DNA of 24,554 nt from a virus. This document shows positions 5,637 through 24,245 of this stretch, in pieces; position 1 is the first letter of the stretch; each line of letters starts with the position of its first letter. The notes below the pieces were generated by a model. It did no database searches, had not been told where the DNA came from, and saw only the letters and a program-made list of their open reading frames with translations. The stretch spans positions 1 through 24,554 of IMG/VR virus record IMGVR_UViG_3300009155_000250; one strand, given 5' to 3'. A program made the translations under genes and the position numbers.

Positions 5637-6074
5637 ATGCCTTACAAAACATTAGAAATCACCAATTCGGCAGTAGTTTATCAACAGGCTCCTAAAACTA
5701 GTCAATTTTACAAGGGCTTTTCCAGCACAGACGTGGCCAATGTCAATAACAAATTATATGACATAGACATAATTAGACAAGATTTGATTAATCAATTTAA
5801 AACCAGTAAAGGTGAGAGATTGATGAACCCAACATTTGGTACAATTATATGGGATGTATTAATGGAGCCAATGACTGATGAAATTTATGATTTGTTATCT
5901 CAGGATATAACTTCAATATGTAATAGTGACCCTAGGGTAGTTCCTACCCAAATAAATTTAAATGAATTTGAGGGAGGTTATTTGGTAGAGATATCATTAC
6001 AACTAGTTGGAACTAATCAAACTACATTTTTAAAGTTATCTTTTAATCAAGAAACTGGGTTGAATATACAATAA
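5637..6074 (+). CDS. 25: Baseplate wedge protein gp25 (GPW/gp25 family)
   Basis: A 145-residue protein close in length to T4 gp25 (132). It belongs to the gp25 family, whose members sit in the inner baseplate wedge and template sheath assembly. Visible hallmarks are a Phe/Ser-rich N terminus (FYKGFSST), DIDIIRQDLINQF at about residues 42-54, the family signature KGERLMNPTFGTIIWDVLME (about 58-77), and CNSDPRV followed by a two-strand C terminus. The gene starts 13 bases after the spike gene. No convincing Shine-Dalgarno sequence is visible before the ATG, so translation may be coupled to the gene upstream. In T4, gene 25 lies with genes 26, 51 and 27. Here it sits between the spike gene and gp6, and I recall it next to gp6 in marine T4-like phages. 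Confidence 0.93.
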   Translation: MPYKTLEITNSAVVYQQAPKTSQFYKGFSSTDVANVNNKLYDIDIIRQDLINQFKTSKGERLMNPTFGTIIWDVLMEPMTDEIYDLLSQDITSICNSDPRVVPTQINLNEFEGGYLVEISLQLVGTNQTTFLKLSFNQETGLNIQ

Positions 6075-6121: not shown

Positions 6122-9100
6122 ATGTCTATACCTTCTACTAACTCAAAACTACTGGTAACTGAAGATTGGAAAAAAATATACCAATCATATCAAAATGCGG
6201 AATTTCAAAGTTACGACTTTGATACTCTTCGCAGGATTTTAATTTCCTACCTTCAAGAAAATTATCCAGAAGATTTCAATGATTTTATTGAAAGTAGCGA
6301 ATACATTGCATTAGTTGAGCTGATTGCATATCTAGGACAAAATCTTAGTTTTAGGGTTGATTTGAATGCCAGAGAAAACTTTCTAGAAACTGCTCAACGT
6401 AGGGATAGTATTTTAAGATTGGCACAACTAGTTAGCTATGTGCCAAAACGTAATACACCTGCTAGCGGACTTTTAAAAATATCAGCGTTATCTACTACTG
6501 AAAATATTTTTGATCAAGCTGGCAATAATTTATCTGGTAGTACTATTGTTTGGAATGATCCTACAAATGCCAATTGGTATGCACAATTTTTAAGTATATT
6601 AAACGGAGCAATGCCAGGAGAAACAGTATTTGGAAAGCCAAACGATAGTGGTATCATTGTTGGGGTACAAACTGATCAATATATCATTAACAGTTCTAAC
6701 ACGGATGTTCCAGTATATTCATTTGGTCAGAATATTAACGGTTCAGCTATGAATTTTGAAATAGTGCCTGCTACATTTTCAGGTAAGAACTTTGTTTATG
6801 AAGATACTCCTACCCCAGGAAATTCTTTTAAAATCATATATCAAAATGATAATCAAGGGTCTGGTAGTGCAGGTACTGGATTTTTTGCATTTTTTAAACA
6901 AGGTACGCTGGGTTTTAGTAATTTCAATGTAACCAACCCTGTGCCAAATGAAATCATAGGAATTAATGTTGAAAATATCAATAATACTGATGTGTGGTTA
7001 TGGCAATTGGACATGAACGGCGGGTATTCATCATTATGGAACCAAGTTCAGTCTACAAATGGTAATAATATTATCTACAACAGTTTAGAAAAATCTTTTA
7101 AAAACATATATAGTGTTACTACTCGCGATAAAGATCAAATTGATTTAAATTTCTCAGATGGTGTATTTGGTAATCTACCCACAGGAAATTTTCAAATTTT
7201 TTATCGTCAAAGTAATGGAGCTTCTTATAGTATAAGTCCAGATCAAATGTCTGGGATTACTGTGACCATACCTTATGTAGATAAATCTGGAGTCAATCAA
7301 ACATTATCGGTTATTTTAAATTTAGAATATACTGTGAATAATAGTTTATCTACAGAAACCAATGACACAATTCGTAGGAATGCACCTCAATCATTCTACA
7401 CTCAGAATAGAATGATAACTGCTGAAGATTATAATATAGTACCCTTAACATACACTACTGATATTTTAAAAATTAAAAGTGTTAATAGAGTAAGTAGTGG
7501 GATTAGTAAATATTTTGAGCTAAGTGATGTTAGCGGAAAGTATAGTAAAATAAATATTTTTTGTGACGATGGTATAATTGCAAAAAATGTTACCAGTGAA
7601 GATTTAAAATTTAGTTTTTATGATCAAAATGATTTGTGGACTTCAATAAAAAATTATTTAATACCTATATTGACTAAATCAGAATTAATGTCTTTTTATT
7701 TAGATGTTTATAGAAAGGTTGCACCAATCAATGTAGATGATACTAAGCAAATTACTTGGGTATCAGTAAACACGGTTACCGGGCAAAGTCGAGGATATTT
7801 TAGAGGACCAATTTATAACAATGAAACAAATAACTATTTTTTGAGACCGTTGTCCACTCATCAAAGTCCTGCAGGGTTTGACAATCCATTATATTATGTA
7901 TCAGCAGGATCTATGATTAAATTTCAAGCACCAAATGATAATCTTGGAAGAACTCAATATTTTTTACCAGATGGTACTTTTACAATAACAGAAGGATTTG
8001 ATACATCCAATTATTTTTGGACTAATGTTCAGCAGGTAATTGGTACGGGTGATAATAATGGAGTTGGTGCATTAGATGATGGCACTGGCCCCGTAATATT
8101 AAGTAATATAATTCCTAACGGATGTATTGTTGTTGAAGTAGTTCCTCCTTTTGTTAATTCTTTAGATCAAGATTTTCAATTCAATATAGTTAATTTATGT
8201 TTGAGTTATCAAAATTTTGGTTTAAGATTTGATACCGTTTATCGAACTTGGCAAATAATTTTTAATGGGAATTTAAATAAAACCAACGATTTATCTGAAA
8301 GTGGATTAGATAATATGTTTATTAATGAAGGCGATAATACTTTCTCTAATAGGGATTCAAGTTGGTTAATATTATTTGATTTAATTGCTCCAAAAACATA
8401 TAAAATCACTACTAAATTAGTACAGTATATTTTTAAAAGTGAAAATCAAACTGGCTTCTATGTTGATAATTCTAATATAAATTATGATTATACTAACAAC
8501 ACGGTAGTAAAAGATAAAATTACAATTTTATCAATTAATCCAAAAGCCAATTCCTTAAAACCGTTAGGTATTGATTATATTTGGCAAATAACTGGTTCAA
8601 AAATTGAAGAGGATGGATACATAGATCCGTCAATAATTTTTCTTGGACTTTATAACGGTATTTCACCTGGGCAATTAAACACAGTCACAATTAATCCGGA
8701 TTCTTTTTCTAATATTGTAGGACTTCCAACTAATACTGCATTAATTAATGGTATAAGTTATACAGGTAGACGTGGAATAAAATTTCATTATGAACATAAT
8801 CCTTCTGAAAATGCAAGAGTTGACCCTGCTAAAAGTAATATAATTGACATCTATATGTTAACATCTAGTTACAATAATCAATTTAGAAATTGGATTTTAA
8901 CAGGAGTTGGAGCAAAACCAATACCCCCAACTACTCAATCTTTGGAAAATAACTATAGTGCAAGTTTGGAGTTGGTTAAATCAATCAGTGATCAAATAGT
9001 ATTCCAACCTGCTTCTTATAAAATTCTTTTTGGAAATTATGCAGAATCAAAATTACAAGCAACATTTAAAGCAGTTAAAAATAGTACCAGTATAATGAGT

Positions 9101-9385
9101 GACAACTCTATTAAATCTAAAATATTAGAAGCAATTAATCAATTTTTTGCTTTAGAAAATTGGGATTTTGGGCAAACATTCTACTTTAGTGAACTATCTA
9201 CTTATGTGATGAATTTAATGTCGCCGGATGTTACCAACTTAGTATTAGTTCCAGTATCCTCAAATTTTGGAAATTTATACGAAATTAAATGTCAGACAAA
9301 CGAAATTTTTATCAGTGGAGCTACTTCAGATAATATTGAAATTATTTCAGCTGTGACACCATCAAAGTTACAATTTGGAACATAA
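6122..9385 (+). CDS. 6: Baseplate wedge protein gp6-like (baseplate J family)
   Basis: A 1087-residue wedge protein. In T4, gp6 forms the inner iris-like ring that opens during baseplate rearrangement. The N-terminal region carries ELIAYLGQNLSFRVDLNARE and ENFLETAQRRDSILRLAQL (about residues 62-101), then SYVPKRNTPASG, the most recognisable gp6 signature. A second conserved part at about 419-462 (APQSFYTQNRMITAEDYNIV) is the baseplate-J-type core. The C terminus (about 988-1047) has ILEAINQFFALENWDFGQTF followed by LSTYVMNLMSPDVTNLVLVP, the usual C-terminal fold of this family. T4 gp6 has 660 residues; the extra length lies mainly between about 110 and 400 and between 500 and 950, probably inserted beta-rich domains. 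A late promoter box lies 20 bases upstream. No clear Shine-Dalgarno sequence precedes the ATG. The next gene starts two bases after its stop. Confidence 0.9.
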   Translation: MSIPSTNSKLLVTEDWKKIYQSYQNAEFQSYDFDTLRRILISYLQENYPEDFNDFIESSEYIALVELIAYLGQNLSFRVDLNARENFLETAQRRDSILRLAQLVSYVPKRNTPASGLLKISALSTTENIFDQAGNNLSGSTIVWNDPTNANWYAQFLSILNGAMPGETVFGKPNDSGIIVGVQTDQYIINSSNTDVPVYSFGQNINGSAMNFEIVPATFSGKNFVYEDTPTPGNSFKIIYQNDNQGSGSAGTGFFAFFKQGTLGFSNFNVTNPVPNEIIGINVENINNTDVWLWQLDMNGGYSSLWNQVQSTNGNNIIYNSLEKSFKNIYSVTTRDKDQIDLNFSDGVFGNLPTGNFQIFYRQSNGASYSISPDQMSGITVTIPYVDKSGVNQTLSVILNLEYTVNNSLSTETNDTIRRNAPQSFYTQNRMITAEDYNIVPLTYTTDILKIKSVNRVSSGISKYFELSDVSGKYSKINIFCDDGIIAKNVTSEDLKFSFYDQNDLWTSIKNYLIPILTKSELMSFYLDVYRKVAPINVDDTKQITWVSVNTVTGQSRGYFRGPIYNNETNNYFLRPLSTHQSPAGFDNPLYYVSAGSMIKFQAPNDNLGRTQYFLPDGTFTITEGFDTSNYFWTNVQQVIGTGDNNGVGALDDGTGPVILSNIIPNGCIVVEVVPPFVNSLDQDFQFNIVNLCLSYQNFGLRFDTVYRTWQIIFNGNLNKTNDLSESGLDNMFINEGDNTFSNRDSSWLILFDLIAPKTYKITTKLVQYIFKSENQTGFYVDNSNINYDYTNNTVVKDKITILSINPKANSLKPLGIDYIWQITGSKIEEDGYIDPSIIFLGLYNGISPGQLNTVTINPDSFSNIVGLPTNTALINGISYTGRRGIKFHYEHNPSENARVDPAKSNIIDIYMLTSSYNNQFRNWILTGVGAKPIPPTTQSLENNYSASLELVKSISDQIVFQPASYKILFGNYAESKLQATFKAVKNSTSIMSDNSIKSKILEAINQFFALENWDFGQTFYFSELSTYVMNLMSPDVTNLVLVPVSSNFGNLYEIKCQTNEIFISGATSDNIEIISAVTPSKLQFGT

Positions 9386-9387
9386 TA

Positions 9388-12300
9388 ATGACAACGTCAA
9401 CATTTAAATCAGTTAATTTACTGCCAACATATTTTCAAACTGATAAAAATTCTAAATTTTTATCTAGTACCATTGATCAATTAATACAACCTGCTAAAAT
9501 AGAAAGATTGAATGCTTTTGTGGGGTCAACAGCCACGCCTAATTATAGCTCGTCTGATTCGTATGTTGTTGAGCCAGAAATTTCAAGGCAATTATATCAA
9601 TTAGATCCTGCTTTAGTAATCAATAATATACAAGATTCAATACAGTCTATTATTACTTTAAAAGATCTTTCTAATGAAATAGGAATCAAAGGAGGCTATA
9701 ACAATAACTTTGATAGATTATTTAGGAGTGAAATGTATCCTTATGATCCTCCAATTGATTTAGATAAGTTTAACAATTATCAAAATTATTTTTGGCTTCC
9801 TTCAGGTCCTTTTATAATAGATATTGATGAAGATGATTTGGATGTTGCTAAATTTATTGTAGGCAATACAACTACCACAGTTATGGTGCACGGCAACTCG
9901 GTTCAGTTGTTAAATGGTATGTTAGTGACTTTTACTGGATTAAATGTTGCTTATGAATATCAATATAAAGAGTTTTTTGTTGAAGGTGTAGGAACATCAA
10001 TAGTATTAGTGCCTTTGAATGAATTAATCACCCCTGAAAAAATAGCACAATCTAATGACGAGTTATATGATTCTACAAAATATGATTTTTTAGGTTTTGA
10101 TAGTTCAGAAAATTTTCCATTAAATCCAGAATATGTCACAATTAATCGTGCCAGTAAAGATAGGAATCCTTGGTCAAGATATAATCGGTGGGTTAGTTTA
10201 GATGTAATAAAAACTAGCTCTTTACTAAACAGCAAAGAAATCATTACTCCTATTTCTAATAGAGCTGTTAGGCCTATTATTGAATTTAAAGCAGACATAC
10301 AGCTATATAATTTTGGATCTAATGCAATACAACATGTTGACTTAATAGATACTACAAGAACAGATGCCTATAATGAAATTGAAGGATTAATACTACCAAC
10401 ACCTACCTCAACTAAAAGCAACATACTTATTGATGGAGTGAATATAGAATATGGCCATCGCATAATTTTTGCTGCTGATAAAAATGAATTAATCAGAAAC
10501 ACGGTGTTTGTTGTTTTACTTGTTAATTTAGGTGGAAATCCAAACCCGTCTGTTGCATTGATTCCTTTGTCTGAATACTCGCAAACTACTTTAACTGAAG
10601 GGACATCAATATTAGTTAAAAGGGGAGTGGTTAATGGCGGAACAAGTTGGTGGTTTGACGGTTTATACTGGAATTACGCTCAACAGCACACTAAACTTAA
10701 CGAGGGACCGTTAATTGATTTATTTGATAGCTCTGGGGTTAGTTACTCAAATAAAAATGTTTATTTGAATAATTTCAAAGGGAATAAAATTATTGGGTTT
10801 GGTATTAATGAAAACAACCCTATAGATCCTGTGTTGGGGTTACGTTTAAATTATTTGAATAATGATGTTAATTCAAGTATTCTTTTTGAAAATTATTATG
10901 CTAATGAAGTTATAAATTTGATTGATATTGGCGAAAATGTTTCTAAAATTAAAACTAGTCAAACTTTTTTTAAAATTGATGGAAAATTAGCAAACGTATG
11001 GGGTAACTTGATAAATCCCCCAGTTGGTTTAAACACCAGCACTGGGTATTATGATTTGCCAATGGGAGTTACAAATAATCCATTAAATGAAGATCTGGAC
11101 AATCTAGTTCATGGTGATTTGGATAATCAAAAAACTAATAATATTCAAGTAGTTTCAAATGTAAATCCAATTAGTTTTGCCATGATGTTTATGGGTAAAT
11201 CTGAACACAATATTGTTGATGCTATAACAAAATGTTCCGCTGATTACGAATATTTTAAGCTAAGTTTAATTAATAATACCTCGCTAGTGACACATCCAAA
11301 TGATCCTATTAAGTCTCTTGATGAAATTTTAAATAAAATTAATGCTGGTAAAACAATAAAAAGTTCTTTTTATCTATCAGATATGTTAGGTTATGGAACA
11401 GAAAAAATTGAAACTCAGTATGTAGTGTCTGATCCTAGATTTACATCCTACCCGTTACCACAAGATTTTTCTATAACATCACCCTCAAGTAAAAGTTTAT
11501 TAGTATATATTAATGGAAGTCAATCAGTTTTAGGAATTGATTATGAAATACAATCAACTGATTCTTATATTGAAATTTTAAAAAATTTATTTATTGGTGA
11601 TGAAGTATTAATTGTTTTGTATCCAGATACTAAACGCAACTATATACCGCCAACCCCTACTAAATTAGGGTTATATCCTAAATTTGTTCCAAAAATTTAT
11701 TTAGATACTAGCTATACAACACCGGTAAACGTAATTCAAGGACATGATGGTAGTATAACTGTTGCATTTAATGATTATAGAGATGATATTATATTAGAAT
11801 ATGAGCTACGAGTTTATAATAATATAAAAGTTGATTATCAACCAGAATTATTTGACATTCATGAAGTTGATCCTGGTGTTTGGAGAGATACTGCAAAAAT
11901 TAGCGATTATAATTATGAAGAAATCAATTCTATTTTAGAAAAAGATTTTATTAAATGGGCAATTAATTATGGTATTGATTATACCACAAATAATTCTTAT
12001 AGTGCTAGTAATAAATTTACCTGGAAATTTAAATCAAAAATAAATTCAATTGAAGGATCGTGGAGAGCGATATTTAAATATTATTACGACACTGATAAAC
12101 CAAGTACCAGTCCTTGGGAAATGTTAGGTTTCCATGAAAAACCTAATTGGTGGGATTCCCAATACGGTCTAGCACCTTATACATCTGGCAATACATTGAT
12201 GTGGAATGATCTTGCAAACGGTCGAGTAGCAATCACTGATAATGGTCCTGTTATCAATGAGTTTTACGCAAGGCCTTCGTTATCAAATAATTTACCAGTT

Positions 12301-15300
12301 AATGGAATCGGGGATTTATTAGACCCAATTACTATTGGCATAGCTGAGTCATTGGAAAATTTTAGTTGGTCAGTGGGCGAACAAGGTCCTGCAGAAACTG
12401 CCTGGAGACGAAGTAGTAGTTGGCCATTTGCAGTTCAAAAATTATTGTTGCTAACCCGCCCAGCAAAATATGCTTCTTTAATGTATGATCCTTGTCAAAT
12501 TAAAAAAAATATTGTTGGACAATGGGTATCTGTTAAAGATCAATCATTTTTAAAATTAAAAAATTTATATATTCATGGAGAGAATGAAATACCTACAAAT
12601 AGCGGGTATAGTGTTTATCTAAGTGAGAATGGTCAAAGACTTGACAAAAATTATATTTCAAAACTTAGAAATGATTTGACATATGCCAATTTTAATTTAT
12701 TTTATCCTGTTGCTGGTTTTATAAACAAAGATACTATACAAATTTTTATTGATGCGTATGAGCCAACTACTAGTTTGCCTGGGGCATTATTACCTGATGC
12801 TGATTATAATTTAATACTTAAGACTAGCAACCCGATTATGAGTATAGGTATTTCGGGTATAATTATACAAAGGGTTGATAATAATTTTGTTGTTAGGGGA
12901 TATGATAGAGAAAATCCTTATTTCACATATTATTTGCCAATCAGAAACTCGTCAACTCCTTCAATTACTGTAGGCGGCATCAATAAAGAGTTTGTTAATT
13001 GGGAGTCGGGACTAACAGGTGCAGTTGGAAATTTAAATTTAACTACCGCACAGTCTGCTCCAACTGGAAATTTTTACCAAAAAGATCAAATAGTTCAAAA
13101 TGGAGGAGCTTATTATCAAACACTAGTTTCTCATCAATCAGGATTAGTTTTTGATAAATCTCTATTTTCAAAATTACCTTCATTGCCAGTTATTGGCGGC
13201 GCCACAGTTCAATTGGCAAATAATTTTGAATCAACACCTCTAAAAATTCCATATGGACATACATTTACAAATATTCAAGATTTGTATGATTTAATTGTAG
13301 GATATGGCAAATGGTTATCTGATCAGGGATTTGTGTTTAATCAATTTAATTCTGATTTAATGGAAACGGTTGATTGGAATTTAAGTGCAAAAGAATTTTT
13401 ATATTGGAGTACACAAAATTGGATTAATGATAGCGTATTATCGTTAAGTCCTTTTGCAGATCAAATTACATATAGTTTTGACAAATTAGTAGTTGATAAT
13501 ATTTTTAATAAATTTTACGAGTATAGTGTTATCAAATCAGATGGCACTCCCTTTGAAAAATCCAATCTATTTATCACACGGTTGGATGGTGTCTTTACTG
13601 TTAAAGCGATTAATACTGAAGATGGAATATATTTTTTACGATTAAATGCTGTACAGAAAGAACAAGGCATAGTTTTTAATAACAAAACAATTTTTGGAGA
13701 TGTGGTTTATAATCCTAAAACCAGTCAGCGTCAAAATCGTGTTAAATTAGTTGGGTTTCGAACTTCTGATTGGAACGGGAACTTTTCTGCTCCAGGATTT
13801 GTCTATGATATTGTTAATGTAGTTGACTGGGTCCCAAATACAAACTATCTAGCCAGTACGGTTGTACGATATAATAATTTTTATTATAGTGCCATCAGAA
13901 ATGTCAGTAAATCAGCGACTTTTGATTTTAACAAATGGAAAAAACTTGGAAAAAAACCAATTTCCAAATTGTTACCAAATTTTGATTATAAAATTAATCA
14001 ATTCAAAGATTTTTATAGTTTAGATATTGATAATTTTGATATTGGTCAAGAAAAATCTGCTCAAAATTTAATTGGTTATTGGGCAAGAACTTATCTTAAT
14101 AATATAATACCTAATCCAATATCTCAATATAAGTTTTATCAAGGCTTTATTAAAGAAAAAGGTACAAAAAATGTTGTATCAAAATTGTCTAATGCTGATC
14201 CAGTAAATTCAGATATTGAAATTAAAATTTATGAAAATTGGGCATTACGTGTTGGGGAATACGGTGGATTCACATCATCTCAAGAATTCGAGTTTGCGTT
14301 AATAGAAGGAACCTTTTCAGAAAATCCGCAGATCATATCGTTTTTGCCACAACCAGCTACTTTAAATTATTCATCAATTTACTATGTTGATCCGTCAAAA
14401 TTTACTATACCTTCAACGGGAAAAATACCTGAAATAAAAACCACTACTTCAACGAATGTGTTTAAATTAATACATGCAGGGTATGTTCGAATTGATGATG
14501 TTGACGCTACTGCATATAATCAAGATAGTTTGTTAGATATTGCTAATTCTAATAATTTATTAGAAGGAAATACTATTTGGTTAGGATTTAAACCTGATGG
14601 AAGCTGGGATGTTTTAGAATATAGGTTGTTGACTCAAATTGTTGATGCAGTATCAGATACATCTTATGACCGAATAACTATCACTACATTAACCCCACAT
14701 AAATTAGAAATTGGGAAAATTGTATCTATTTCTGGTGTTTCTAATTCATTAAATGGAGTTTATCTTGTAGACTCAATAATATCTTTAACTCAATTTGAAA
14801 TACTTAATTCTACAATGTTTACAAATATGGAATCTTTAACATTACCAGGATTTTTGTTTACATTTGAGTCATTAAGATTTTTAGATTTTGATTCCATACC
14901 ATCTGATGAAATATTGCATACTTACAAAACTGGTTCCTATGTATGGGTTGATTCAGGCAATGATACTAGTAATAAAGGTTGGGCAGTATATAAAAAATCT
15001 TCAAATTATAAAAATAATATTTTTATTGGAAAACATTCCAATTCCCCACAGGGTTATGGATATAGCATTAGTTCAAGAAATGGAAGTGATATTTTAGCAG
15101 TTGGGGCTCCTCTATTTAATGACACTTCTAATAGTTCAGGCGCAGTGGTCGTTTATAAAAATAAAAAATCAGTATTGGAAGAAGTAGCATTTTACACAAT
15201 GCCAAATACAGCTGGAAATAGTAATAAATTAGGAACAACCGTAGTTTATGATGATTATCCTTTTTCAACTGGCATTGAAAAATTTGGATTGACTTTTGCA

Positions 15301-18300
15301 GGGGCTCCTGGAGCATATAACAATAGTGGTACTGTCTTAATTTTAAGTATTAATGACATATATCAAACAACAGTTACAGGACGATTAACTAATCCAAATG
15401 CATCATCTACTGGTACTTATGGTGCTAGTATTTTTGTTCAAAGAAATACAACTACAAAATTAGTATTGGTGGGAGCACCAATAATTAACAAAGTATATTC
15501 CTACATTGTAACTGCAACAAATTCAAGTTCCACAGTACAGATCAGTCAATACTCAACAGTAACATCATCTGCGTCATTAAGTTCAGATGCACAATGGGGA
15601 TATTCAATTGTTGGGTCAGATAATTCAAATTGTCTAGCTATCAGTGCTCCGTATAATGGTTATAAAAATACCGGCACAGTCACTGTAATATTTGGCAACG
15701 GTTCTAAACAGACTATATCTAGTCCTTTTGGGGAGAATGGTCATTTTGGTCTAGCTATGGCTATGAGTTTTGATGCATCATATTTGGCTATTTCTGCACC
15801 ATCCACGCCAAATTCAAATAATAGTTTTGGTGCTGTGGCAATTTACAGTAACACTTGGACAAATAATTTTTACACGCTAACTCAAATTTTAACTAATATT
15901 GTTCCCGATGGTAAAATGTACTTTGGTATGGCTATTAGTATTAATACCATGTCAAATGGGTTGGTGGTATCTGCATTGGGTACCAACACTACTGTTATTA
16001 CTACATTTGATACTATTACTACATTTGATTATGATACAACTATATTCACTGAATCTGAAGATTTTTCAGGGACTACATATCTTTATAATCGTAAAAATTC
16101 AAGATTTGTATATAGTCAAGAGGTCAATGAACTAGAGGAATCAATAACTACATCAACTAATTTTGGAAATTCAGTGATAATTGATGATGATTTGATTTTT
16201 GTAGGTGCTCCATCTACTATAAATCAAAGTACAGGTAGTTTATATATATTTTCTAAAATTAATACGCAGGTTGACGGGTGGGAAAGATTTCGGGTACAGG
16301 ACGAATTACTATTACCCGAATCATTAAAACAAATAAGATTAATTGATACAAATTCAGACAGCATTATTAGTTATTATGATTATGTTGACCCGCTTAAGGG
16401 AAAAATTTTAGGAGTTGCTGAAAAAGAAATAACTTATAAAACAGCCAGTGATCCTGCAATTTATAGTTTAGGGTTTGACGGGGTAAATGTTGATACTAAT
16501 TTAAATTGGATAGATCAACAAGTAGGGCAGTTATGGTGGGATCTAAGCAATGCAAAATTTATTTGGTACGAACAGGGCGAATTAGAATATCGAAAAAATA
16601 ACTGGGGTAAATTATTTCCAGGGGCAAGCATTGATGTTTACGAATGGGTAGGTTCCTCATTATTGCCAAGTGAATGGAGTGTACAAGCAGATACTCCAAC
16701 AGGATTAGCCAATGGAATTAGTGGGCAACCTAAATATGTTAATAATAGTGTGTTATCCGTTAAACAAGTATATGATAATGTTACTGGAAATTTTAGTAAT
16801 GTATATTTTTACTGGGTAAAAAATAAAGTTATTGTGCCTAATGTTAATAATAGAAAACTAAGTGCATTTGCTATATCCTCGTACATTGCTAATCCCACAC
16901 AGGCAGGAATACAATATTCGTCATTTATTTCATCTAGTTCTTTAATATTATCTAATTTTTCTACAAAACTTCGATCAGATGAAATTAGTTTAAATTTTAC
17001 AATTGATAATACTAATAATAAAACTGTAAAACATGTTGAATGGCAATTAATTATTGAAAATTCAAAAGATAGCCCTATACCAAAGTTACTTGAAAAGAAA
17101 TTTATTGATAGTCTTATTGGTAATGACGAATTGGGAAATCTTGTACCTGACCCAAGTTTATCTAAAAGATTAAAATATGGTTTGGGAATAAGACCCCAAC
17201 AAACATTATTTGAAGATAGATTGACTGCGTTACGCAACGTTATTGGGTTTGCTAATAATGTATTAATTAATTATCAAATCACTGGAAATTATAGTTTTGG
17301 AAATTTAAATACCCAAGAAGAACTACCTCAACCAACTACGTCATCGTGGGTGGTTATTGAAGATATTTCAGAGTTGTCAATAGTTGATACTTCAATAGTT
17401 AATAAAGCATCTGTTATTTCAGATAGTTATGTTAATGGCGGTTGGACAGTATATCAATATGAGAATTCAAAATGGAATAGGGTTAGAACACAGGCATATA
17501 ATACAACACTATACTGGGAATATGTTGATTGGATTAGTGCCAAATACAACAAATATACACCTATTTTATATGTTATTGATGACCCATACGAGTTATCAAA
17601 ATTAAATTTAATTCCTGGTCAATATGTAAAAATTAATAATAGGGGAGATGGTAATTATATTATTGTTACAATGGTTCCTATCGGATCTATTGGAAATTTT
17701 GGTGATAAATTTGACGTTGTATATTCAGAAAATGGCACAATTCAATTTAAAGATTCTTTATGGAATTTGTCATTTGGTTGGGATAATGATTATGCGTTTA
17801 ATCAACCTTTATTTGATCAAACTCCAAATATTGAAATATCTTATATTTTGTCTGCGTTAAAAAATGATTTGTTTATTAACGATTTGTCAGACATGTGGAA
17901 TTCGTTATTCTTCATAGGAGTCAAATACGCATTATCAGAACAAACATTTATAGATTGGGCTTTTAAAACATCGTTAGTTGATATAGTAAAATATGCTGGT
18001 ACTTTAACTCAAACATCTGTTTATAAATTACAAGATAGTGCGTATTATGAAAATTTTATTAACGAAGTTAAACCTTACCATACTCAGATACGAAGATTTA
18101 CTGCAAATTTTGAAAATTTTGATGATTCAATGACACGAGTGATTGATTTTGATGAGCCATTTGTGTATGATCAAACCACACAAAAATTTGTTCCGTCAAT
18201 CATACCTTCAAGTTATTTCACTTTCCCAGGAGCATTTAATACTACAACTGGACAAATTACTACAGCTAGTTATCGTTCTAATTTAAAATTAACTACGGTG

Positions 18301-21300
18301 CCATTAAGAGAAATAACTAACACAATATTGTTTGATAGGGTTGATTCAATTGATCAAATTGGAAATTTAACAGTTAATGATAATTTTATTGGAACTAAAG
18401 ATAAATCAATTTTTCAATTAAGCTGGTTAGCCCAGCCTAATAAATCTAAAATTTATGTAACACTGAATGGTTATGAATTATTTGAATCTGCATATACACT
18501 AATTTATAGTAATGAACAATTTGGCGGATATACTAAAAAATATAGTTATTTGAAAATATTTTTAGATAAAATTCAATTAATTGGGTTGAATGATATTGAA
18601 AATTATTCATTATCAGTGACTTATGAAAAAAATATAGAGTTACTAACTGCGGCGGAACGTGTAAAGAATTTTTATTCACCAACTGACGGAATGATCACTA
18701 ATGACATATCTTTATTGATGTCCGGGGTATCAGATCCTAGAAAAATTATTGGCGGGCAATATGAAGGTAAAGGATTTTCAAACATTAATTCTGGAATGAT
18801 CGCTGATAGCATAATTAATCCAAGTGATTCTTATTATCCTTCTTGGAATTATGGAGGTTTGATAAATGCATTGGGTATTAACCCTTCAGATTTAGTTATT
18901 GATGGATCATTTAACTTTTTATCTCCCGAAGCAAATCAGGCACCTGATGAACAAGTTCCAGGATTTTCAGCTGATTCATTAGGGATAGATGTTTTTACCA
19001 AATCTCCTTATCAAACTCCTACAATTTTTAATGGTAGTGTTAATATATCTCCGTCCAATTTAGACAACTTACTTACATTATCAGTAATGCCTCCAACTAC
19101 TGCAAGTATAATTGTGACTTTTAATAATAAACTATTTGAATATCAAAGTTTAGAAAAAACTTGGACAACATCAACACAATTTAGTATTGATTGGACTAAT
19201 AACAAATTATTAATTCCTAATCAAGATAAGGTTGGTATACTAGCATATACAATAATAGGTGTTGGTGATGCAACACTAACTGGTCTAGGAATTATAGGGT
19301 TTGAATCGTTATCGGTGAATGTAGCAAGCACGTCAACCAGCACTAGACTGACCAGCATGATTAATTATAGACAGTTAAAGAGTTCGTATGTCACTGTTGA
19401 TGGAGCCCCAATAACACGTTTGACTGCTACAAATTCTATCAACGATTTATTTTATTATATAAACACAGTGAGTAGTCGAGACACGCGGGCTGCTGTGGAT
19501 ATATATAATTTATCTTCTGGTACTCATTACATTCAATCTTGGTTTTTTGATTCTTATTCGCCAAAATTTAATCAAATACAAGAACAAATTATACGAATTG
19601 ATGATGAACCAATATTTGTTAATGACGAAAATGGGTTTGCTTCAAGCATAGCCATAACCAATTTTCCCAAAATTTTAAATAGTCCAAATTCCCAAGTAGT
19701 TGTGGAGTTGATACCTGACGCTGGATTACCTGTTAGACTTCGTCCGCCATATGCAGTGTACTATACTGTAACAACCACTGATGTAACATTAGCTAGTTAT
19801 CCAATAGTGGCATCTACCTCATCTTTTGTATTTGATGATCTCCAATCAAAAAATATGAAAGTATACTTAGATGGACATAAATTGAATTTTGGAGTTTCTC
19901 AAGATTTTTATGTATCTAATAATGCTGTAATTTTAACTACACGTCCGGCACTGGTGGGATATCCTCCAATAATTGGTAGTCAACTTATCATAGAAACTTT
20001 CTATTATAACGATATTTCTAATTCTCAGTCAATTAATGATGGATCTGTAATTTATGATTATGATTTTGTGTTGGATACCAATAATGAAGCAATATTATTA
20101 ACTCCAAATTATAGTACATCTACAAATTCTTCAATAAAAATAACCACGTTTACAATACAAGATTCATTGGGAATTGTAACTCAAAGATTTGTAGGAAATC
20201 CTGATAATAGGACCTATAAATTAAGTTATCCAGTATTAAATTCAAATTATTTGTGGGTTGAAATAAATTCAACAGCTACGGGGTTATTATCATTGATTAA
20301 TAATGTTGATTATCAGTTGTTGGAAGATCATTTAACAGTATTGATTAGTAGTGAGTTTTTCCTAACAAATAACGATTCAGTTTTTATAATGAGTTTTGCT
20401 GATCCAGGTAAATCAGGAAAAAATATGGGTTATAGGATTACCAAAGATTTCTTAGGTAAAACTAATTTTACTAGAATATCTAGTGTTGATTCTACATACT
20501 TAACTCAACCGTTATCAGCTTTTGATACTGAAATTTATGTAGCTGACGGAAGTATGTTAAGTGCTCCAAATTCAGAAAAAAATATTCCAGGAGTTATACT
20601 GGTTGCAGGCGAACGTATTGAATTTTTTAAAAATGTTGATAATGTTTTAAGTCAACTACGAAGAGGAACTGGTGGAACAAGTCCATTAACGAATTTGGAT
20701 GCGGGTACTGTAGTTATTGATCAAGGTACTGAACAAATAATAGAAATATCTCCAGGAACACCCTACACAGATAAAATTTTAATTCAAAATACATATACTA
20801 GTGCCAATTTGGAAAATACGTATATAATTAATACAACCACAATAACTACTTGGGTAAATCCAATTACATCAAGTACAGTGCGATGTGATGGCATTACTTT
20901 GATGACTACTAAGTCTTCATTGCCAGTTGATCCATATACTGGTATACAAACATATTTAGGAAGAACTTATTCTGTGTCAACGGCTAGTATACATGCCAAA
21001 GATCAGCTTGAAATATATTATGGTGGGCAGTTATTACGTAAAAATCAAAGTTTTCACCACGATACTACAATAATGTATGATGGTATATTGTTAGATCAAA
21101 TTAAAGGTACAGTTCCTTCAGCTTCATTTTTATCATCGGCAACAATATATTTAGGCGATTCTTATATCTGTGAAGATACTGATGAAGTATGGGTATGTAC
21201 TGAAAATCAATATAATTTACAATCAGTGCCATCATTTGTTTATTCAGGATTAAAGAGATACAAGCCTGATTTTACAATAAATACCGGAACACAGCAGATT

Positions 21301-21528
21301 ATTTTAAATACGCAAACTGTTAAAATACAAACTGGGACACAATTAGTTGTAGTGATGAAACAAGTAGGACCATCCTGGAATGATGTCAAATCAATTAATT
21401 CTACTACATCTTTATTAGACAGTACTGGAACTATTACCAAATTCTTAAAATTAGGGAATGCAGTATTACCCACGCATTATTTCTATGGGTCGGCAAGTTC
21501 TATAGCTAAACCACAAGGCGGAGTATAA
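9388..21528 (+). CDS. Giant 4046-residue baseplate/tail virion protein
   Basis: A single uninterrupted 12.1-kb gene, starting two bases after gp6 with a GGA about eight bases before its ATG. It holds the place of T4 gene 7, but T4 gp7 has 1032 residues. The N-terminal 130 residues and blocks such as SPWEMLGFHEKPNWWDSQYG (about 905-925), WRRSSSWPFAVQKLLLLTRP (about 1006-1025) and EVKPYHTQIRRF (about 2893-2904) are of a type I recognise from very large virion proteins of marine T4-like phages. Inserted modules are CBM5/12-like segments (about 1220-1263, 1479-1525), a segment around KLEIGKIVSISGVSNSLNG (about 1760-1810), a seven-repeat FG-GAP propeller (about 1888-2291), and fibre-like modules nearer the C terminus (3022 onward; VYLDGHKLNFG near 3490; GERIEFFKNVDNVLSQLRRG near 3741). 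It probably bridges wedge and fibres. The exact role is unknown, and gp7 equivalence is positional inference. Confidence 0.82.
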   Translation: MTTSTFKSVNLLPTYFQTDKNSKFLSSTIDQLIQPAKIERLNAFVGSTATPNYSSSDSYVVEPEISRQLYQLDPALVINNIQDSIQSIITLKDLSNEIGIKGGYNNNFDRLFRSEMYPYDPPIDLDKFNNYQNYFWLPSGPFIIDIDEDDLDVAKFIVGNTTTTVMVHGNSVQLLNGMLVTFTGLNVAYEYQYKEFFVEGVGTSIVLVPLNELITPEKIAQSNDELYDSTKYDFLGFDSSENFPLNPEYVTINRASKDRNPWSRYNRWVSLDVIKTSSLLNSKEIITPISNRAVRPIIEFKADIQLYNFGSNAIQHVDLIDTTRTDAYNEIEGLILPTPTSTKSNILIDGVNIEYGHRIIFAADKNELIRNTVFVVLLVNLGGNPNPSVALIPLSEYSQTTLTEGTSILVKRGVVNGGTSWWFDGLYWNYAQQHTKLNEGPLIDLFDSSGVSYSNKNVYLNNFKGNKIIGFGINENNPIDPVLGLRLNYLNNDVNSSILFENYYANEVINLIDIGENVSKIKTSQTFFKIDGKLANVWGNLINPPVGLNTSTGYYDLPMGVTNNPLNEDLDNLVHGDLDNQKTNNIQVVSNVNPISFAMMFMGKSEHNIVDAITKCSADYEYFKLSLINNTSLVTHPNDPIKSLDEILNKINAGKTIKSSFYLSDMLGYGTEKIETQYVVSDPRFTSYPLPQDFSITSPSSKSLLVYINGSQSVLGIDYEIQSTDSYIEILKNLFIGDEVLIVLYPDTKRNYIPPTPTKLGLYPKFVPKIYLDTSYTTPVNVIQGHDGSITVAFNDYRDDIILEYELRVYNNIKVDYQPELFDIHEVDPGVWRDTAKISDYNYEEINSILEKDFIKWAINYGIDYTTNNSYSASNKFTWKFKSKINSIEGSWRAIFKYYYDTDKPSTSPWEMLGFHEKPNWWDSQYGLAPYTSGNTLMWNDLANGRVAITDNGPVINEFYARPSLSNNLPVNGIGDLLDPITIGIAESLENFSWSVGEQGPAETAWRRSSSWPFAVQKLLLLTRPAKYASLMYDPCQIKKNIVGQWVSVKDQSFLKLKNLYIHGENEIPTNSGYSVYLSENGQRLDKNYISKLRNDLTYANFNLFYPVAGFINKDTIQIFIDAYEPTTSLPGALLPDADYNLILKTSNPIMSIGISGIIIQRVDNNFVVRGYDRENPYFTYYLPIRNSSTPSITVGGINKEFVNWESGLTGAVGNLNLTTAQSAPTGNFYQKDQIVQNGGAYYQTLVSHQSGLVFDKSLFSKLPSLPVIGGATVQLANNFESTPLKIPYGHTFTNIQDLYDLIVGYGKWLSDQGFVFNQFNSDLMETVDWNLSAKEFLYWSTQNWINDSVLSLSPFADQITYSFDKLVVDNIFNKFYEYSVIKSDGTPFEKSNLFITRLDGVFTVKAINTEDGIYFLRLNAVQKEQGIVFNNKTIFGDVVYNPKTSQRQNRVKLVGFRTSDWNGNFSAPGFVYDIVNVVDWVPNTNYLASTVVRYNNFYYSAIRNVSKSATFDFNKWKKLGKKPISKLLPNFDYKINQFKDFYSLDIDNFDIGQEKSAQNLIGYWARTYLNNIIPNPISQYKFYQGFIKEKGTKNVVSKLSNADPVNSDIEIKIYENWALRVGEYGGFTSSQEFEFALIEGTFSENPQIISFLPQPATLNYSSIYYVDPSKFTIPSTGKIPEIKTTTSTNVFKLIHAGYVRIDDVDATAYNQDSLLDIANSNNLLEGNTIWLGFKPDGSWDVLEYRLLTQIVDAVSDTSYDRITITTLTPHKLEIGKIVSISGVSNSLNGVYLVDSIISLTQFEILNSTMFTNMESLTLPGFLFTFESLRFLDFDSIPSDEILHTYKTGSYVWVDSGNDTSNKGWAVYKKSSNYKNNIFIGKHSNSPQGYGYSISSRNGSDILAVGAPLFNDTSNSSGAVVVYKNKKSVLEEVAFYTMPNTAGNSNKLGTTVVYDDYPFSTGIEKFGLTFAGAPGAYNNSGTVLILSINDIYQTTVTGRLTNPNASSTGTYGASIFVQRNTTTKLVLVGAPIINKVYSYIVTATNSSSTVQISQYSTVTSSASLSSDAQWGYSIVGSDNSNCLAISAPYNGYKNTGTVTVIFGNGSKQTISSPFGENGHFGLAMAMSFDASYLAISAPSTPNSNNSFGAVAIYSNTWTNNFYTLTQILTNIVPDGKMYFGMAISINTMSNGLVVSALGTNTTVITTFDTITTFDYDTTIFTESEDFSGTTYLYNRKNSRFVYSQEVNELEESITTSTNFGNSVIIDDDLIFVGAPSTINQSTGSLYIFSKINTQVDGWERFRVQDELLLPESLKQIRLIDTNSDSIISYYDYVDPLKGKILGVAEKEITYKTASDPAIYSLGFDGVNVDTNLNWIDQQVGQLWWDLSNAKFIWYEQGELEYRKNNWGKLFPGASIDVYEWVGSSLLPSEWSVQADTPTGLANGISGQPKYVNNSVLSVKQVYDNVTGNFSNVYFYWVKNKVIVPNVNNRKLSAFAISSYIANPTQAGIQYSSFISSSSLILSNFSTKLRSDEISLNFTIDNTNNKTVKHVEWQLIIENSKDSPIPKLLEKKFIDSLIGNDELGNLVPDPSLSKRLKYGLGIRPQQTLFEDRLTALRNVIGFANNVLINYQITGNYSFGNLNTQEELPQPTTSSWVVIEDISELSIVDTSIVNKASVISDSYVNGGWTVYQYENSKWNRVRTQAYNTTLYWEYVDWISAKYNKYTPILYVIDDPYELSKLNLIPGQYVKINNRGDGNYIIVTMVPIGSIGNFGDKFDVVYSENGTIQFKDSLWNLSFGWDNDYAFNQPLFDQTPNIEISYILSALKNDLFINDLSDMWNSLFFIGVKYALSEQTFIDWAFKTSLVDIVKYAGTLTQTSVYKLQDSAYYENFINEVKPYHTQIRRFTANFENFDDSMTRVIDFDEPFVYDQTTQKFVPSIIPSSYFTFPGAFNTTTGQITTASYRSNLKLTTVPLREITNTILFDRVDSIDQIGNLTVNDNFIGTKDKSIFQLSWLAQPNKSKIYVTLNGYELFESAYTLIYSNEQFGGYTKKYSYLKIFLDKIQLIGLNDIENYSLSVTYEKNIELLTAAERVKNFYSPTDGMITNDISLLMSGVSDPRKIIGGQYEGKGFSNINSGMIADSIINPSDSYYPSWNYGGLINALGINPSDLVIDGSFNFLSPEANQAPDEQVPGFSADSLGIDVFTKSPYQTPTIFNGSVNISPSNLDNLLTLSVMPPTTASIIVTFNNKLFEYQSLEKTWTTSTQFSIDWTNNKLLIPNQDKVGILAYTIIGVGDATLTGLGIIGFESLSVNVASTSTSTRLTSMINYRQLKSSYVTVDGAPITRLTATNSINDLFYYINTVSSRDTRAAVDIYNLSSGTHYIQSWFFDSYSPKFNQIQEQIIRIDDEPIFVNDENGFASSIAITNFPKILNSPNSQVVVELIPDAGLPVRLRPPYAVYYTVTTTDVTLASYPIVASTSSFVFDDLQSKNMKVYLDGHKLNFGVSQDFYVSNNAVILTTRPALVGYPPIIGSQLIIETFYYNDISNSQSINDGSVIYDYDFVLDTNNEAILLTPNYSTSTNSSIKITTFTIQDSLGIVTQRFVGNPDNRTYKLSYPVLNSNYLWVEINSTATGLLSLINNVDYQLLEDHLTVLISSEFFLTNNDSVFIMSFADPGKSGKNMGYRITKDFLGKTNFTRISSVDSTYLTQPLSAFDTEIYVADGSMLSAPNSEKNIPGVILVAGERIEFFKNVDNVLSQLRRGTGGTSPLTNLDAGTVVIDQGTEQIIEISPGTPYTDKILIQNTYTSANLENTYIINTTTITTWVNPITSSTVRCDGITLMTTKSSLPVDPYTGIQTYLGRTYSVSTASIHAKDQLEIYYGGQLLRKNQSFHHDTTIMYDGILLDQIKGTVPSASFLSSATIYLGDSYICEDTDEVWVCTENQYNLQSVPSFVYSGLKRYKPDFTINTGTQQIILNTQTVKIQTGTQLVVVMKQVGPSWNDVKSINSTTSLLDSTGTITKFLKLGNAVLPTHYFYGSASSIAKPQGGV
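13048..13176 (+). other. CBM5/12-like segment 1 in the giant protein
   Basis: Residues about 1221-1263 read GNFYQKDQIVQNGGAYYQTL followed by a short polar stretch. The spacing of the aromatic residues and the Gly-Gly turn resemble the W/Y-x-Y-x-G-x-x-V pattern of small chitin-binding-like modules. The match is by eye and partial: the leading Trp is missing. Confidence 0.4.
13822..13962 (+). other. CBM5/12-like segment 2 in the giant protein
   Basis: Residues about 1479-1525 read VDWVPNTNYLASTVVRYNNF, then YYSAIRN and FNKWKKLGKKP. The order Trp, Pro, Tyr, Val, Tyr, Tyr, closing Trp is the pattern of small carbohydrate-binding modules (CBM5/12) found in chitinases and phage fibres. Binding itself is inference. 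Confidence 0.5.
15049..16260 (+). other. Seven-repeat FG-GAP (integrin-alpha-like) beta-propeller in the giant protein
   Basis: Residues about 1888-2291 hold seven repeats of a FG-GAP-type unit: an aromatic-Gly start (YGYSISS, LGTTVVY, YGASIFV, WGYSIVG, FGLAMAM, FGMAISI, FGNSVII), then a strand ending in AVGAP, FAGAP, LVGAP, AISAP, AISAP, VVSAL or FVGAP. A GxVxVY-like closing strand follows in most of them. The GAP positions are about 50-80 residues apart (codons near 15103, 15298, 15470, 15640, 15790, 15967 and 16203), which fits propeller blades. The sixth repeat has lost the Pro. No clear DxDxDG calcium loops are seen. Confidence 0.75.
15997..16032 (+). repeat. Tandem 18-base direct repeat
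   Basis: Two adjacent 18-base units that begin with the same 15 bases (ATTACTACATTTGAT) encode the repeated peptide ITTFD. They lie within the sixth FG-GAP repeat and keep the frame. This looks like a recent in-frame slippage duplication. Confidence 0.7.
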
Positions 21529-22227: not shown

Positions 22228-23013
22228 GTGGCATATTCAATAACATTTAAAGATGGAAGTCCGCTGTTATTAATAGCAGATAATACCGTTGACACATCAA
22301 GAAGTGTGACTTTTGTAGGTAAAGATTATCGAGGGTATGGGATTTATCAAAATCAAAATTTAATTACATTATTAACTAACTCAGCCAGTCCTAATCACTC
22401 TAAACCAATAAACCCTTTAGTTGGCGAATTGTGGTATGATGTTACTAATCAAAAACTAAATATTTGGGATCCAGCATACAACTCAAATGGTGGATGGAAA
22501 AATACTGCAGGTGCAGTGATTAGTCGTTCACAGCCTGGATCAGTAGCAGTTGGCGACTTTTGGTATGACATTACTAATAAAACACTTAATTTATATACAT
22601 TTGACGATTACCTAACAATAACAACTTATCCAAGATTGACCCCGTCGGGTTGGATAGTTCCAAATGATCCAGTATTAGATAATACTGCACCAACTGGTGT
22701 TACTCAACAAGTAATATTACTTAAAAATAATGGAAATGTTGTTGGAGCATTAAGTAATTCAAGTTTTATTGCCAGCACCAACGATAGTAGCTACACTTTT
22801 CCTTTAGCCAATAGTGCTGCTTATTCCATATTACAAGGATTGAATATTATTGGGTATGTTCAAGCTACAGGCGGGCTTGTTGTAAACACTGTTAACGACA
22901 ATTTTGCAGCTAACTCTACCGGGGTTCCTGGACAATTGGCAGCTAGTACAAATTCTTTATTTGTTTGTGTAGCTAATAATTCTTGGAAAAAAATACAACT
23001 AACTTCTTATTAA
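22228..23013 (+). CDS. Tail-fibre-like protein, short paralogue
   Basis: A 261-residue protein that starts with GTG directly after the stop codon of the preceding gene. A G-rich stretch at 22215-22220 acts as a plausible ribosome-binding site and supports the GTG. Residues 1-80 (ITFKDGSPLLLIADNTVD, VTFVGKDYRGYG, LITLLTNSASP, GELWYDVTNQKLNIWD) match the start of the following gene in order and spacing, so the two share an N-terminal module. A second GDFWYDITNKTLNLYT unit follows at about 107-122. Such WYD/WWD units with a K-L-x-L/V strand are typical of fibre and virion proteins of marine phages. The C-terminal 130 residues are beta-rich without a recognised motif, and the maturation-type C-terminal domain of the neighbour is absent. 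A role as tail fibre or fibre adaptor is inferred. Confidence 0.72.
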   Translation: MAYSITFKDGSPLLLIADNTVDTSRSVTFVGKDYRGYGIYQNQNLITLLTNSASPNHSKPINPLVGELWYDVTNQKLNIWDPAYNSNGGWKNTAGAVISRSQPGSVAVGDFWYDITNKTLNLYTFDDYLTITTYPRLTPSGWIVPNDPVLDNTAPTGVTQQVILLKNNGNVVGALSNSSFIASTNDSSYTFPLANSAAYSILQGLNIIGYVQATGGLVVNTVNDNFAANSTGVPGQLAASTNSLFVCVANNSWKKIQLTSY

Positions 23014-23015
23014 TC

Positions 23016-24245
23016 ATGCCTTATATATTAAGCCTAACAACTGGTAGTACTTTAGTTACAGTCAAAGATGGTACTGTTGATAATACCACTAGTCTTACTT
23101 TTCTTGGAAGAAACTTTTCTGGTTACGGAGAACCTTTAGAAGAAAATTTTATAAAATTATTAGAAAATTTCTCTTCACCGGGGGCAAGCAATGTTCCATT
23201 AAACTCGGTATTATCAAATCCTCTTCAAGGGCAACTGTGGTTCAATAGCACTACACGCCAACTATATGTTAGTTATGATGGCACAAATTTTAAAGGACTT
23301 GGTAGTATAACAGTTGGGTCTAAGAACACAATAGATAATCCAGTAGATGGTGACATGTTTTGGGATGATGGAGTATTGTATGGCTATCAAGCATCATCAG
23401 AGTCATTTGTTAACATTGGCCCTGCTAATGGTAGTCAGTTTAGTTCATGGCTTTACGGTAGAACATTGTCTGCCCCTAATGATTATCTATTGCCATCTAT
23501 TACTGGGGTTGTTGGTACATTACCAGTAACAGTATTATCATATAGTTCTTATACACCAAAAAATACTAATTTGATTGATGGTAACACATTAAACACTTTC
23601 ACTTATATTAAACAAGGTATTACGTTACCTAATGCTGATCCAATCACGGGAGTATCTTCAATATCCACTGATACTGGATATTTACTTTGGGGAACTGCGG
23701 CCGATGCTGTCAATGCTAGAAATGTTTCAGTAACCAGATCTAATTTATCAAATAATAATTTTTATATACCTTTATCAAACACAACAACAGGCCGTGTAGG
23801 GCTTGTAACATCATCTTCTTTTTATTATACTAATAATGGAGTTTTGAATGCTACAGCCACTGCTGCCTATTACGCAGATCTAGCAGAACGTTATGAAGCA
23901 GATGCTGTTTATGACGAGGGAACTGTATTGATTATTGGTGGCGATAAAGAAGTTACTGTTACATCACAATTTGCAGATACAAGAGTGGCGGGTATAGTAA
24001 GTAAAAATCCTGCTTATTTAATGAATAAAGATGCTGGAACAGACGAATCTCACCCAGCTATTGCCTTAAGAGGCCGAGTTCCTTGCAAAGTTCAGGGATA
24101 TATTAAGAAAGGTGACTTGATTGTTACAAGTAGCACACCTGGATACGGAATTGCCGCAAGTCATGTTTTTGGCGGAGCAATAATAGGAAAAGCCCTAGAA
24201 GAACACTCTGAGGGCTTTGGGATTATTGAAGTATTGGTAGTTTAA
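23016..24245 (+). CDS. Tail-fibre-like protein with conserved C-terminal domain
   Basis: A 409-residue protein. I chose the ATG at 23016, two bases after the previous stop, because from there the N terminus aligns with that of the preceding gene; an in-frame TTG at 22983 would overlap that gene without reason. Residues about 1-80 are the shared module (ITLT-like strand, [45 protein letters not shown]). A second unit is [13 protein letters not shown]. The C terminus (about 285-409) reads [54 protein letters not shown] and [20 protein letters not shown]. This is a widespread C-terminal domain of phage fibres and related bacterial proteins, possibly related to Peptidase_G2/intramolecular-chaperone tips. 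Whether it is cleaved cannot be seen. The gene end overlaps thyA on the other strand. Confidence 0.8.

Follow-up and report, generated by a model that had tools for sequence, protein, structure and literature searches.

The locus described here raises the question of what a run of seven FG-GAP repeats, resembling the head of an integrin alpha chain, is doing in the middle of a 4046-residue phage virion protein, and whether it arrived there recently or long ago. FG-GAP propellers occur in animals and bacteria, in giant viruses and in a small number of phage proteins, and beta-propellers often bind glycans or proteins. The window analysed is the viral record IMGVR_UViG_3300009155_000250 (24,554 bases), in which all genes noted lie on the plus strand (Table 1). 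A first-pass annotation, made from the sequence alone, had proposed an integrin-like propeller at positions 15049-16260, acquired by insertion into a baseplate protein and serving in receptor binding or as a scaffold.

Table 1. Features of the window, the giant protein and its predicted propeller
Feature	Positions	Strand	Residues	Basis
gp5-like baseplate hub / tail lysozyme gene	3218-5623	+		phrog_13211, 5e-49
gp25-like baseplate wedge gene	5637-6074	+		PF04965, 4.9e-8
gp6-like baseplate wedge gene, directly 5' of the giant gene	6122-9385	+		phrog_10646, 8.8e-269
Giant structural protein (4046 aa), directly 3' of the gp6-like gene	9388-21528	+		phrog_10938 'virion structural protein', E=1.7e-285
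Left flank, conserved, ends in WxD...GWAVY motif	14350-15000	+	1655-1871	
Whole predicted propeller	~15001-16269	+	~1872-2294	Pfam, AlphaFold2, Foldseek, VIA-align
Putative closing strand completing blade 7	15007-15027	+	~1874-1880	model strand 25-31
Blade 1	15049-15207	+		model and repeats
Blade 2	15223-15399	+		model and repeats
Blade 3	15409-15567	+		model and repeats
Blade 4	15589-15723	+		model and repeats
Blade 5	15742-15897	+		model and repeats
Blade 6, loop between strands B and C enlarged	15913-16131	+		model and repeats
TTFD...TTFD...TxF hairpin in the blade-6 loop	16000-16047	+	2205-2220	
Blade 7, fourth strand supplied by the upstream closing strand	16156-16269	+		model and repeats; best FG-GAP_2 stretch
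Right flank, present with or without the propeller	16270-17427	+	2295-2680	
Tail-fibre-like gene, downstream of the giant ORF	22983-24245	+		phrog_19602 tail fiber protein, 5.7e-7

Genomic context of the giant protein

The genes are arranged in the order gp5-like, gp25-like, gp6-like and giant gene, and three smaller genes lie 3' of the giant ORF. The giant ORF is uninterrupted, and positions 15049-16260 correspond to its residues 1888-2291, free of stop codons. Assignment to phrog_10938 is based on both the profile match and the position after gp6; outside the propeller, a Pfam scan of the protein in chunks returned a single sub-threshold match and nothing else. The tail-fibre-like gene also has matches stronger than that to phrog_19602, all to families of unknown function. 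The C-terminal part of the gp5-like protein matches endolysin/chitinase families (phrog_181, phrog_14712).

The order of gp6 and giant gene is kept in cultured jumbo phages with an annotated gp6, and the homolog in PA5oct is annotated in its record as detected by ESI-MS/MS, which suggests that the giant protein is a baseplate-associated virion protein. Of the earlier term 'phage baseplate protein', the encoding of the protein at a baseplate locus is supported; its location in the baseplate is putative. The giant gene occupies a T4 gp7-like position, directly after the gp6-like gene; HMMs of its segments gave no significant match to T4 gp6-gp12 and wac, and hence none to gp7, gp8 or gp10. The giant protein is neither an integrin nor demonstrably T4 gp7.

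The segments on both sides of the propeller are common to jumbo phage proteins, in agreement with their first description as typical of large phage virion proteins. The left flank is present in the propeller-less locus L070 (E 1.4e-44) and partially in cultured jumbo phages. No part of the giant protein is more conserved than the right flank. Taken as a domain of residues 2295-2690 (positions 16270-17457), it occurs in 59 cultured-phage records, of which nearly all exceed 280 kb, and yields a confident AlphaFold2 model (pLDDT 86); for residues 2290-2700, neither Foldseek (best E 0.32) nor VIA-align (best Z 4.0) gave a fold match in the PDB. Since nearly all cultured homologs reside in genomes of more than 280 kb, and contigs carrying the propeller reach 322 kb (L162), the window probably derives from a jumbo or very large phage.

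Repeats and predicted structure

Residues 1888-2291 can be read as seven repeats with the pattern [FYW]G...(GAP-like)...VY. The segment reaches the curated Pfam cut-offs for families of FG-GAP / integrin-like propellers, with E=1e-8 and 35.6 bits for FG-GAP_2 (PF14312, cut-off 23) and E=2.7e-5 and 24.4 bits for FG-GAP (PF01839, cut-off 22.1). FG-GAP_2 was also matched by 22 of the 23 aligned relatives (best 8.5e-34). When searched as a single sequence against the PDB, the segment gave integrin matches no better than E 0.6, which was too weak, so that a family profile was used instead; this profile found integrin alpha-4 at 8.9e-14. The two Pfam matches, their recurrence in relatives and the family profile place the seven repeats beyond chance.

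The AlphaFold2 model of residues 1850-2320, computed from 23 sequences, is all beta (mean pLDDT 81.6, pTM 0.84). The best 50 matches listed by Foldseek against the PDB were all integrin chains (best 5.4e-13), and VIA-align superimposed model residues 23-451 on integrin alphaM over 354 residues (Z 40.1, rmsd 2.7 A). As firmly as prediction and profiles can establish it, the segment is predicted to be a closed seven-bladed beta-propeller of the FG-GAP / integrin-alpha type. The seven repeats of the first-pass annotation, and the closed ring proposed for them, were in this way borne out by profile comparison and structure prediction; their coordinates were correct for the repeats but too narrow for the domain. 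The integrin alignment begins at residue 1872 (model residue 23), and the domain start was therefore moved upstream to include a strand that, by analogy with that alignment, would pair with blade 7 and close the ring.

The predicted propeller resembles the head of integrin alpha in its seven FG-GAP repeats, its four-stranded blades and the N-terminal strand that precedes blade 1 and closes the ring. It differs in its low identity (17-20% in structural alignments), in its position inside a phage virion protein, between phage virion segments rather than integrin leg domains, in a blade-6 TTFD hairpin that is conserved throughout the clade, and in lacking DxDxDG loops. A pattern search for the integrin calcium loop (DxDxDG-type, before the GAP-like motif), run without an integrin positive control, had no hit in the window or in any of 158 distinct relatives, and the corresponding loop is shorter than in the aligned integrin alpha-4. 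An integrin-type propeller with calcium sites was rejected on these grounds. The lack of obvious calcium loops, already remarked on in the first-pass annotation, does separate this protein from classical integrin repeats, but it is shared by its relatives and not peculiar to it.

The TTFD hairpin is found in 140 of 159 distinct carriers of the propeller and is rare elsewhere (20 matches across other ORFs totalling 415,598 aa). It is the most conserved feature of the clade outside the core propeller, and we infer that it is the best candidate for a contact element. In relatives, additional segments up to ~200 aa long interrupt the propeller at about 14 sites, most of them loops or strand edges. 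This is comparable to the segments inserted between strands in some integrins (I domain); one insert in a relative matches CBM_5_12. The preference for loops and strand edges was not significant (12 of 14 sites, p 0.195), and a confinement of inserts to loops was not supported. In L055 and L071 the flanks are ~1200 aa apart, with glycine-rich 'GSGYTxxPxV'-like repeats between the blades.

Distribution and history of the propeller

The conserved right flank was found in 211 loci, in scans that began from the window and its relatives; some of these loci overlap or share a contig, so that the counts refer to loci and not to species. The collection scan was made with alignment A3, because the 25-row alignment A2 proved too diverse. 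Of the 211 loci, 201 have the propeller, at the same site in each. It is lacking in the other ten, Atu_ph07, Phosso, SCTP-2, PA5oct, 121Q, GAP32, L070, L235, L237 and L238; it is likewise missing from five further cultured phages (Vibrio 2.275.O, RaK2, XaC1, RAS14 and XacN1), which brings the cultured representatives examined to 11, all without it. L134 was considered as a propeller-less locus and rejected, since sequence and Pfam reveal a far-drifted propeller; it is counted as a carrier. A further scan returned at least 598 matching stretches; uncultured phages with the propeller are a very large group. Contigs that encode the protein family (L230-L238) have been placed in genome bins with bacterial and archaeal names, among them Rickettsiales, Pelagibacter, Pacearchaeota and Euryarchaeota, probably through binning errors.

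The distance from flank to flank is 401 aa in the window, 360-1260 aa among carriers and 83 aa in L070; several cultured jumbo phages have 53-125 aa at the site, and their flanks continue around the gap. In a tree of the right flank (99 rows, 89 carriers and 10 non-carriers), the presence of the propeller needs two changes: nine non-carriers, six of them cultured jumbo phages, lie beyond one deep branch (SH-aLRT 99), and L070, in which the propeller has been replaced, is nested inside the carriers. The tree is a quick one with some long branches and, being unrooted, does not separate gain from loss: the clade's ancestor may have gained the propeller long ago, or the other side may have lost it long ago.

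These comparisons also bear on a recent acquisition, in which recombination would have inserted the propeller into the protein of this particular phage. The clean boundary in L070 and the cultured phages and a slightly raised G+C around positions 15001-16000 (34% vs ~30%) would be in line with it. The shared site in 201 of 211 loci, the two changes on the tree, a divergence resembling that of the flanks, and an identity of only ~33% among the window's own blades make it very unlikely, and it was rejected. Of the insertion proposed by the first-pass annotation, the clean boundary and the absence of the module from some related phages were confirmed; the event is old. As far as the sequence comparisons reach, the giant proteins of a large clade of environmental phages, relatives of the cultured jumbo phages, have long had the propeller in common.

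Sequence constraint and proposed role

Against L011, L012 and L150 the propeller is ~64% identical (other segments of the protein, 50-71%), and its dN/dS of 0.18-0.22, a rough ratio because synonymous sites are near saturation, falls within the range of the neighbouring segments. Change faster than that of structural neighbours, which is usual but not obligatory for receptor-binding domains, was absent in the propeller. Judged from these alignments, it is under purifying selection and as constrained as its neighbours. The nearest sibling, L013 (96% identical), is near-identical to the window at residues 550-1655 and 100% identical in the propeller, but clearly more divergent (93% identity) at residues 1-550 (positions 9388-11037), a pattern that suggests recombination.

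The main rival to a structural role places the propeller on the tail's outer face, as a module that would bind a receptor or glycan and grip the host surface at adsorption. Binding is a frequent function among propellers of the integrin/VCBS supercluster (PMC8023676); extra segments in the loops of some relatives, one with the CBM_5_12 match, and the occurrence of the propeller in environmental but not in cultured jumbo phages point the same way. Yet it evolves no faster than the rest of the protein, it is unchanged in L013 despite the differing N-terminal part, and the tail-fibre-like gene downstream is a likelier candidate for receptor binding. We regard this reading as possible, with the odds clearly against it. 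Of the two functions offered by the first-pass annotation, a scaffold appears to fit better than receptor binding, and in particular a diversifying receptor-binding role seems less likely, because the constraint on the propeller matches that on its neighbours and its sequence is identical in the closest sibling.

An unlikely alternative is an old remnant free of contacts, a tolerated spacer that is sometimes lost. Its absence from cultured relatives, its replacement in L070 and the far-drifted sequence of some carriers such as L134 would agree with this, but it is constrained to the same degree as the rest of the protein, and the clade has preserved both its cage residues and its blade-6 hairpin.

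The reading that we favour, with some confidence, is that the propeller is an old conserved module of the giant post-gp6 protein and most likely a rigid, calcium-independent hub in the region of the tail baseplate. As its two ends adjoin each other, it would form a lateral module, with the left flanking domain before it and the right one after it. Its loops, above all the blade-6 TTFD hairpin, would contact neighbouring virion proteins, and the extra inserted segments of many relatives may do the same. Three points weigh against such a hub. With no relation to T4 gp7, gp8 or gp10 and no PDB fold match for the right flank, gene order and a single homolog are what points to the baseplate; cultured jumbo phages and L070 manage without the module, which is therefore dispensable; and a low dN/dS is compatible with binding of a conserved ligand.

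A more speculative and rather doubtful variant is an exchangeable docking platform of a baseplate type not yet seen. The hairpin would lock onto the baseplate, and the other loops would bear lineage-specific segments, some of them host-binding, much as an I domain is borne on integrin heads; many uncultured phages, but no cultured relative, would then possess such an integrin-like head.

Relation to known propellers and phage proteins

Bacterial integrin-type / FG-GAP propellers (PF14312) are similar in the FG-GAP_2 match and in their cage glycines and prolines. Those described in Chouhan et al. 2011 (PMC3192720) keep their calcium sites, and the place of integrin-type propellers among propellers is treated in PMC8023676 (VCBS supercluster) and PMC9218822. 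Term searches of the three articles returned no mention of phage. A search of the open-access literature for FG-GAP and phage found no description of a propeller in a phage baseplate protein. The fold is known, and its place in a protein of a phage baseplate locus is apparently undescribed.

The phrog_10938 giants of PA5oct, 121Q, GAP32, RaK2, Atu_ph07, SCTP-2 and others are homologous to the giant protein over much of its length and have the same post-gp6 order, but the cultured ones differ in lacking the propeller. As a clade-level trait of uncultured phages, the propeller is missed by knowledge gained from cultured jumbo phages. Residues 1872-2294 and the blade-6 hairpin offer a concrete target for studying what the propeller does in the virion and how whole domains enter and leave giant phage proteins.

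FG-GAP repeats also occur in structural or hypothetical proteins of Synechococcus phage S-MbCM6, Sinorhizobium phage Phosso and the uncultured phage LR797314, in another protein context and with no TTFD hairpin motif within the repeats. The S-MbCM6 protein (L090) is a structural protein of 7022 residues, named gp8 wedge protein in one record. Gene 108 of Phosso (L008) encodes another giant protein, hypothetical and with 19 FG-GAP_2 repeats, whereas the giant protein at the baseplate locus of the same jumbo phage has no propeller.
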